Shown here one piece after another: positions 27,861-31,205 of a stretch of 32,320 nt of DNA; position 1 is the first letter of the stretch, and each line of letters starts with the position of its first letter. Location of the stretch: positions 1 through 32,320 of IMG/VR virus record IMGVR_UViG_3300007734_000579. The stretch is one strand, 5' to 3'. The stretch is from a virus. Under the pieces are notes generated by a model. That model was given only the letters and a program-made list of their open reading frames with translations, had not been told where the DNA came from and searched no databases. The translations under genes and the position numbers were made by a program.

Positions 27861-28049
27861 ATGTTCCCACATTGCTTCCCATCTGAAAAGCAGTATCGTG
27901 AATGGGTCAGCTACGCCAAAATCGTTGCTGAACCCGTCCATATCTGTGAGGACTGCACAAAGGATTTTCAGAGGGAAATGCTGCTTGAAGAACGGTGCAA
28001 ACCCTCACCGAAATGGCTCATTGGCAAAAAACCCGAAGGAACAACATGA
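27861..28049 (+). CDS. Small Cys-rich early protein (62 aa)
   Basis: The protein contains CEDCTKDFQREMLLEERC (about residues 29-46), a pattern CxDCTxxFQxxMxxExRC that I recall from accessory proteins of Burkholderiales phages and that probably binds zinc. It ends in a basic tail. No Shine-Dalgarno sequence is visible before ATG 27861 (the upstream codon in frame is followed by a stop), so translation may be leaderless or weak. It is the first gene rightward of the divergent region and couples to the next gene by ATGA. Confidence 0.7.
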   Translation: MFPHCFPSEKQYREWVSYAKIVAEPVHICEDCTKDFQREMLLEERCKPSPKWLIGKKPEGTT

Positions 28050-28192
28050 AAGCACTCGTAGGAATTTGGTTCGCTCTGTCTGTCAGCATGGCATGGGCAT
28101 CTTGCACCACTCACACAATCATGTCGGGTGGACGCATCGTGACCTGCACGACTTGCTGCTACGGTAGCAATTGCACAACAAATTGTTTTTAG
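28046..28192 (+). CDS. Exported Cys-rich micro-protein (48 aa)
   Basis: A signal peptide (MKALVGIWFALSVSMAWA) is followed by a mature peptide of about 30 residues with six cysteines and the motif VTCTTCCYGSNCTTNCF at the end. The -3 residue (Trp) does not fit a lipobox, so cleavage by signal peptidase I is expected. I recall similar C-T-T-C-C-rich phage peptides with unknown function. AAGGA precedes the ATG, which overlaps the previous stop. A periplasmic disulfide-bonded peptide in an early region could affect the envelope or exclude other phages (inference). Confidence 0.75.
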   Translation: MKALVGIWFALSVSMAWASCTTHTIMSGGRIVTCTTCCYGSNCTTNCF

Positions 28193-28196
28193 GGTG

Positions 28197-28227
28197 TTGA
28201 CACGCCATCAAAGATTGTGCGTATAAT
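28197..28227 (+). promoter_or_regulatory. Strong sigma70-type promoter for the structured RNA
   Basis: A perfect -35 hexamer TTGACA (28197-28202) and a perfect -10 TATAAT (28222-28227) are separated by 19 bases, two longer than optimal. The predicted +1 is near 28234, exactly at the first base of the 5' hairpin. It is the best promoter match I see in the window. Confidence 0.75.
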
Positions 28228-28233
28228 CTAAAC

Positions 28234-28390
28234 CGTCTAGAGTGGCATCTAGACGATAACGCGAATCTTGAACCCCGTAAGGTACTGTGTGGTCTTGTAC
28301 GACAGCAGGCGAGATTTTTGATTCGCGTCAATCGTCTTGTTGTTGCTCTCGCCAAGAGCCAAGACCACAGAGCATCTTGCGGGGTTTTTG
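28234..28390 (+). ncRNA. Candidate structured RNA 1 (hairpin plus pseudoknotted long stem, U-tract end)
   Basis: About 157 nt without a supported reading frame. Helix A: CGTCTAGA (28234-28241) with TCTAGACG (28248-28255), 8 bp, 6-nt loop. Helix C: 28271-28297 with 28360-28386, 27 positions with only two mismatches (A28284/C28373, G28287/G28370) and two G-U pairs; its 3' end runs into UUUUU (28385-28389), so it is also an intrinsic terminator. Helix D inside it: GGCGAGA (28308-28314) with TCTCGCC (28347-28353). Helix B: GACGAT..CGCGAATC (28252-28267) with GATTCGCG...ATCGTC (28320-28336), 14 bp; its 3' side is in the loop of D, so B with C and D is a pseudoknot, or B is an alternative to C. A and the outer part of B compete for 28252-28255. 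Function unknown: an attenuator, antitermination site, replication primer or trans-acting RNA are all possible. Confidence 0.7.
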
Positions 28391-28392
28391 CT

Positions 28393-28520
28393 TTTGGACA
28401 ACACAATGCGGTGCTGTCGATGGTTGTGTTTGAGATACCCTGCTACACGAGCAAACCAAAGCAGGGGGCGTGGGCGAACCTTAGAGCGCGGTGGTTGAAA
28501 TAGTCTGAGGTAGTGCGATG
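28393..28520 (+). other. Non-coding leader with two hairpins downstream of RNA 1
   Basis: No supported gene lies here. Two hairpins are visible: AACACAA (28400-28406) with TTGTGTT (28424-28430), and CCCTGCT (28438-28444) with AGCAGGG (28460-28466, 15-nt loop). The region may be the leader of the replication genes if transcription reads through the RNA 1 terminator. A short reading frame covering part of it has no ribosome site. Confidence 0.45.
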
Positions 28521-28527
28521 CGATGAC

Positions 28528-28755
28528 ATGGCTCCGAAAAGCAAGTCACGGCACAGAGCGAACTTTGTTTATGAACACGGTAAGGCTGTGCTTTGCTCCA
28601 ACAATCACCAAAAAGCAAATAAGAATAAGAGAGTCAGAGGATGTGAGTTTTATCAACTGAGAGGAAAAAAATGGACTTATTTGAAACGGGATTCGACAGA
28701 TTTTGGTCAGCATGGCCTAAAAGCCCCCGCAAGGGTGGCAAGTCAGAGTGCTTGA
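28528..28755 (+). CDS. Possible small basic protein (75 aa)
   Basis: From ATG 28528 the frame reads MAPKSKSRHRANFVYEHGKA, then LCSNNHQKANKNKRVRGCEF and LRGKKWTYLKRD. It is very basic with two cysteines and a His, which could bind nucleic acid or zinc. A GTG at 28513 would add five residues. There is no good ribosome site, and the 3' 85 bases overlap the next gene in another frame, so the frame may be partly fortuitous. A competing frame from ATG 28523 (45 aa) ends just before the next ribosome site. Confidence 0.35.
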   Translation: MAPKSKSRHRANFVYEHGKAVLCSNNHQKANKNKRVRGCEFYQLRGKKWTYLKRDSTDFGQHGLKAPARVASQSA

Positions 28756-29033
28756 AGAAATGGCAAAAGTTCTACTGTGAGACTTGTGCCGATCAAATCA
28801 TCAAACATCTTGAGTGGATGAAAACCACTGACCAATGGCGCAAAGATAACGGGGCATTCATTCCCGCACCTTTGGTCTACCTTAATCAACAAAGATGGGA
28901 CGGGGCAGAGATACCCGACACAGCCCCCAAAGCAGACCCCGCACTAGAGAAGATCAAAGCCGACATTGAGAGGGCTGCACCAATGCCAAGCCACATCCGC
29001 GAACGACTTGCTCAACTGAGGGGTAAAGCATGA
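28671..29033 (+). CDS. Putative phage replication protein (C-terminal O/DnaT-like module)
   Basis: This 120-aa protein starts MDLFETGFDRFWSAWPKSPR and continues with KKWQKFYCE, HLEWMKTTDQWRKDNGAFIP and PLVYLNQQRWDGAEIPD. The pattern F-x-x-FW-x-A-[WY]-P...K..K..C/A-x-x-W and the YLNQ-x-RWDG motif are typical of C-terminal modules of phage replication initiation proteins. Here the module stands alone without an N-terminal winged helix. It is the only recognisable replication-type gene in the genome. GAGAGG lies five to six bases before the ATG. The basic C-terminus ends RLAQLRGKA and overlaps the next gene by ATGA. Confidence 0.75.
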   Translation: MDLFETGFDRFWSAWPKSPRKGGKSECLKKWQKFYCETCADQIIKHLEWMKTTDQWRKDNGAFIPAPLVYLNQQRWDGAEIPDTAPKADPALEKIKADIERAAPMPSHIRERLAQLRGKA

Positions 29034-31138: not shown

Positions 31139-31177
31139 CCGATGCTGGTGGTCTTTCCTCCCACAAGTGAACAGTCT

Positions 31178-31205
31178 GAGGCCGGGGCTTCGGCCCCTCT
31201 TTTTT
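31178..31205 (+). terminator. Intrinsic terminator of the rightward early operon
   Basis: GGGGC (31184-31188), tetraloop TTCG and GCCCC (31193-31197) are followed by TC and six Ts (31200-31205). The UUCG tetraloop and T-tract make it a strong terminator between the early operon and the late genes. Confidence 0.9.

Follow-up and report, generated by a model that had tools for sequence, protein, structure and literature searches.

In the lambda pR′–tR′ leader, promoter and terminator lie within ~200 nt of each other, upstream of an operon; to our knowledge, no covarying pseudoknotted RNA, second RNA module or cassette exchange is known there. Type III toxin-antitoxin (ToxI-like) systems consist of a promoter, a pseudoknotted RNA and a terminator, followed by a second product made by read-through. 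The put RNAs of phage HK022 are ~70 nt long with two stem-loops and work near early promoters on the nascent RNA (putL directly follows PL, and putR is ~270 nt from the start); put RNA binds the zinc-binding domain of the RNA polymerase β′ subunit and suppresses termination (PMC9378689). The phage RNAs GOLLD and ROOL are longer (~660 to >800 nt) and often lie near tRNAs, and ROOL has multiple pseudoknots (PMC12286853).

The DNA stretch analysed here (the window) comprises the 32,320 bases of an IMG/VR virus record. A covariance model finds in it a single copy, on the plus strand, of an RNA that we call RNA1 class I. Positions 28234–28390 (+) are a conserved structured RNA, the first half of a two-RNA cassette with the following features:

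28197–28227 (+): sigma70-type promoter, TTGACA at 28197–28202 and TATAAT at 28222–28227, 19-bp spacer, predicted +1 at ~28234
28234–28389 (+): RNA1 class I, whole ncRNA from the +1 hairpin to the U-tract, ~157 nt, covariance model score 176.5 bits
28234–28255 (+): P0, the +1 hairpin (helix 1 of the alignment)
28257–28265 (+): pseudoknot strand 1, pairing with 28322–28330 in the P3 loop
28273–28384 (+): P2, long closing stem (28273–28297 with 28360–28384), 98.8% of cells paired, putatively doubling as terminator stem
28301–28344 (+): P3, inner hairpin (28301–28309 with 28336–28344), 92% paired, both-side changes at six pairs
28322–28330 (+): pseudoknot strand 2, in the P3 loop, partner of 28257–28265
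28346–28358 (+): P4, small hairpin with a near-invariant loop, CGCCA
28385–28389 (+): U-tract after P2, five U's, invariant in 49/49 sequences
28401–28604, approximate (+): RNA2 type A, second structured ncRNA, with covariation and an extra pseudoknot NNCUAG/CUGGNN
28671–29033 (+): replication-initiation-like gene (rep), the downstream neighbour; phrog_9474, E 2.3e-15

A first-pass annotation of the window had proposed a structured phage RNA with its own promoter, pseudoknot and U-tract end, and fold, covariation and promoter bear out all of these. Of the checks it had suggested, folding against shuffled sequence gave a significant result: the minimum free energy of 28234–28390 is −75.6 kcal/mol, while the shuffled mean is −44.6 (z −8.0), and none of 200 shuffles was as low. 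The +1 hairpin (28234–28241 with 28248–28255), the inner helix and the U-tract are present where they had been placed; the long stem, then drawn as 28271–28297 with 28360–28386, is present as well.

Covariation in homologues, another suggested check, is strong. Loci were fetched from IMG/VR via the neighbouring rep protein, via a 22-nt RNA1 core (at least 119 stretches) and via RNA2 patterns; they contain at least 127 distinct full-length class I copies, and the carriers are many uncultured phages, mostly from freshwater. In a 49-sequence class I alignment 95.4% of cells are paired (38–45% with partners slid) and 219 cells have both-side changes (67, sd 6, in shuffles), figures to be read with the loci being metagenomic and mutually related and the controls correcting for kinship in part only. 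G-U pairs far outnumber A-C pairs in class I (258 versus 39), thus the plus strand is the RNA; the same asymmetry holds in all four RNAs checked (RNA1 class I, RNA1 class III, RNA2-A and RNA2-B).

The first-pass annotation had also described a 14-bp pairing, either a pseudoknot or a mutually exclusive alternative. It is a real pseudoknot whose strands co-evolve; the core has ~9–11 bp, and the rest is an extension competing with the ends of P0 and P3. The mean energy of the cognate duplex is −18.4 kcal/mol versus −8.9 (sd 0.29) with permuted partners (99 sequences), both-side changes occur at seven of nine core pairs in the alignment, and the helix takes 88 distinct sequences with pairing retained. 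The core and the other helices have no base in common, the 3′ strand of the core lying within the P3 loop, and the pairing therefore need not be an alternative fold. A single fold accommodates all RNA1 helices, and no antiterminator was seen that would overlap the 3′ arm of the putative RNA1 terminator. The pseudoknot helix varies freely in sequence, whereas the loops of P0 and P4 and a large part of P2 do not vary. The P0 loop sequence UGGC (28243–28246) is complementary to the P4 loop (28351–28354) over 4 bp; both sides are the same in 49/49 sequences, and covariation therefore neither supports nor refutes this pairing.

Both promoter hexamers with their 19-bp spacer, as claimed earlier, were confirmed by reading the window sequence; our promoter scan missed them because it accepts only 16–18 bp spacers. 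A TATAAT-like box (at least 5/6 matches) is present just 5′ of class I RNA1 in 113 of 119 distinct upstream regions (2/119 at a control position), its end nearly always 5–6 nt from the RNA, and at least 5/6 of TTGACA is found in 60 of the 119. These upstream sequences show a predicted promoter belonging to the RNA, at a fixed distance from its putative +1. With this promoter and a 3′ stem followed by a U-tract, RNA1 resembles, at the sequence level, an intrinsically terminated small RNA, and termination would occur at P2 and the U-tract. Immediately 5′ of the promoter the window carries a 48-aa Cys-rich small ORF (28046–28192, +) that looks secreted; it is conserved beside several cassettes, and MW202462/MW202544 have a similar stretch. 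In locus L213 a tRNA-Asn-like sequence, seen by reading, lies immediately upstream of RNA1.

The first-pass annotation missed both the downstream RNA2 and the interchangeability of RNA1 classes. RNA2 begins within ~20 nt of RNA1. For RNA2-A, 99.0% of cells are paired and 117 have both-side changes versus 31 in shuffles; the corresponding counts for RNA2-B are 203 and 58, and slid controls are far lower for RNA1 class I, class III, RNA2-B and RNA2-A alike. At least three RNA2 types exist (A, the window's; B; and C, recognised by profile), and two loci have an apparent fourth. In the fetched loci, all 230 of 230 distinct pairs have the order RNA1–RNA2, adjacent and on one strand, and no fetched locus has a second copy of the cassette; apparent singletons are at or near contig ends or have a divergent RNA2 (L144, L155, L074). 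Whole-length duplex energies, a crude test, are −90.0 for cognate and −89.2 for non-cognate RNA1–RNA2 combinations (n = 16), and thus give no sign of pairing between the two RNAs. Type B loci (L048, L053, L361 and others) have a conserved CTATCCACCCTTGGAGAACCTATG-like stretch after RNA2, linking a hairpin to the ribosome site of the next gene, where it may affect translation. On the minus strand of L361, shortly past RNA2, there is a 35-aa ORF, MIDTILFLLIGFLLGMLSIIAGAIFICWAGGWSEN, likely a membrane peptide and the only ORF noted directly after the cassette in that locus.

Profiles separate RNA1 into at least eight sequence-unrelated classes; in most of these, a hairpin at the 5′ end is combined with a loop pseudoknot and with a long stem that ends in U's. 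Beside rep proteins 95–100% identical to that of the window we find a different RNA in the same slot behind the same promoter, and in near-identical phages the cassette is replaced within exact limits, +1 on one side and a point just short of the rep ribosome site on the other. Locus L002, for instance, is 92% identical to the window up to 28228 (the end of the −10 box) and 94% identical from 28659 onwards, a point 12 nt upstream of rep; the cassette enclosed by these two stretches is unrelated. In class III (88 cells with both-side changes versus 23 shuffled) the 5′ hairpin loop pairs with a strand just before the terminator arm; this pairing covaries, with both-side changes at five of seven pairs and 99.4% paired. 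Classes II, IV, V, VI, VII and X have 8–13 bp pairings at the corresponding place. An automatic loop-pairing test was passed by V, VI and X (0–6 of 300 nulls) and more weakly by VII (15/300); VIII, IX and XI failed it, the pairing there being seen by eye only. Class I has an invariant 4-bp version of the loop pairing in addition to its own longer pseudoknot. Since these RNAs can be exchanged for unrelated sequences of the same overall shape, the phages appear to depend on such an RNA.

Among the matches listed, rep lies downstream of the cassette in 167 of the 201 loci found by RNA sequence alone. Elsewhere the cassette follows rep (MW202484.1) or the large terminase gene, or stands between the scaffold and major capsid genes, and an HNH gene is sometimes found behind it. 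Two phages, G001 and G002, have no cassette before rep; they carry it elsewhere on the minus strand, with both neighbours on the plus strand and a 35-aa ORF still downstream. The first downstream ORF is co-directional in 206 of 215 cases, and seven non-co-directional exceptions, when rechecked, were spurious ORF calls. Given these varied positions and orientations, the cassette is a module that can move, rather than the leader of any single gene. In L309 (2957–3289), L338 (140–472) and L350 (9192–9524) an HNH endonuclease gene lies directly behind RNA2, as though there were a homing site at the edge of the cassette. The GenBank CDS UOF77725.1 (MW202484.1 33533–33892; L356 3430–3789) spans RNA1 and RNA2 and probably does not encode a protein. 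A hairpin at 31176–31205 of the window, GGCCGGGG-CTTC-GGCCCC with T's after it, resembles a terminator for the rightward operon.

Rfam 15 at the gathering threshold gave no match in the window or in 15 loci; at E ≤ 10 it gave none in 28150–28700, and other lax searches produced only chance-level matches. Group I intron, tRNA and pRNA were dropped as candidates, as no match to any of them was found. Among the INPHARED phages only MW202484.1 carries the cassette, and the plasmids searched gave no match. The exact core pattern retrieved three stretches from 84,980 host species genomes, none of which fits the RNA1 profile; the best covariance-model score being 12.8 bits (E 0.5), we treated them as chance, and no prophage copy was seen. 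No target and no complementary partner turned up.

The reading we prefer, at about even confidence, takes up the trans-acting regulator among the first-pass models: the cassette would be an autonomous phage unit that gives rise to a stable RNA acting in trans, while read-through yields RNA2. A host-type promoter would start RNA1 at the 5′ hairpin, and the transcript would fold into one compact pseudoknotted body. The closing stem and U-tract would then terminate its transcription and free a stable RNA of ~157 nt; read-through or upstream promoters may supply RNA2 as well as, in most phages, transcripts of the genes behind it. RNA1 could bind a host or phage factor via its conserved loop and stem sequences, the pseudoknots holding the shape. 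As the cassette keeps the same form at several positions and may face away from both neighbours, action in trans is the most likely mode; the case for it comes mainly from G001 and G002, and the single coherent fold, the variable pseudoknot sequence and the fixed loops and stem segments also argue for it.

The strongest competitor, somewhat less probable in our judgement though a serious one, is a cis-acting transcription gate, with RNA1 a regulated terminator or a put-like polymerase-bound RNA and RNA2 an antitermination or anti-Rho element enabling polymerase to express the operon that follows. The unit starts at +1 and stops shortly before the ribosome site of rep, a putative terminator closes RNA1 and RNA2 invariably comes next, and the downstream genes are nearly always co-directional; a cis-acting leader would likewise account for an obligatory RNA2 past the putative terminator and for a downstream gene that is usually co-directional, and the HK022 put RNAs do work near early promoters on nascent RNA (PMC9378689). 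Still, put RNAs have two stem-loops in ~70 nt, the helices of RNA1 fit one fold with no antiterminator seen over the 3′ arm, and in G001 and G002 both neighbours are on the opposite strand. We favour the trans-acting RNA over the gate.

Two models of the first-pass annotation tie the RNA to replication and fare poorly. An RNA primer or replication-origin transcript, which we consider improbable, would suit a strongly promoted element usually found beside the replication initiator with no second copy in the fetched loci; however, unrelated cassettes stand wholesale in its place beside rep proteins 95–100% identical to the window's, and RNA-level function is shown for two modules that are both extensively folded, which a primer need not be. 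A leader or attenuator serving the replication operon alone is, if anything, harder to credit: it accords with the 167 of 201 listed loci with rep downstream, but the cassette is swapped next to near-identical rep, and other phages have it behind rep or terminase, between the scaffold and capsid genes, or reversed. The chance of an accidental fold or a hidden coding sequence is negligible; short ORFs do overlap the RNA, and in MW202484.1 a CDS is annotated over the copy there, but compensatory changes, loop gaps of any length and the z of −8.0 speak against both, and covariation refutes them.

A bolder reading, to which we give somewhat less than even confidence, is a new two-component, protein-free phage system. 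In it, non-homologous RNA1s of the same overall architecture, each coupled to one of several RNA2 types, would pass between phages with the cassette intact, perhaps driven by hosts or competing phages, and would serve one shared function, e.g. counter-defence or capture of a host machine. If this is true, a common environmental phage group depends on a protein-free module invisible to ordinary gene annotation; the only GenBank record found draws a CDS across it. Non-homologous RNAs of one architecture in one slot would be an unusual natural structural replacement, revealing which RNA features matter. The module is a defined, testable unit for studying how phages use structured RNA.

The cassette shares with the lambda pR′–tR′ leader a promoter and a putative terminator within ~200 nt before an operon. 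Its likeness to type III toxin-antitoxin systems is in the succession of promoter, pseudoknotted RNA, putative terminator and then a second product, here probably made by read-through. The tandem repeat array of an antitoxin is absent here (only a 23-nt row with score 30 within the P4 region was found), and directly downstream lies RNA2 rather than a toxin gene, followed by a replication, capsid or HNH gene. Like GOLLD and ROOL, RNA1 is an elaborate phage-borne ncRNA to which no function is assigned (PMC12286853); unlike them (~660 to >800 nt, with Rfam models), it is ~157 nt long and does not match their models. HK022 put resembles RNA1 in being structured, in lying at the 5′ end of an early phage transcript or close to it, in being made from a promoter of the phage itself and in requiring no known phage protein (PMC9378689). 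Compared with put (~70 nt, two stem-loops, no terminator of its own), RNA1 has about 157 nt, four nested helices and a pseudoknot, a putative terminator and an obligatory RNA2. Since put, GOLLD/ROOL and the type III antitoxins each differ from it in at least one defining test, we rate the module, within the published open-licence papers searched, as lying outside the known kinds, to one of which a functional test could return it.
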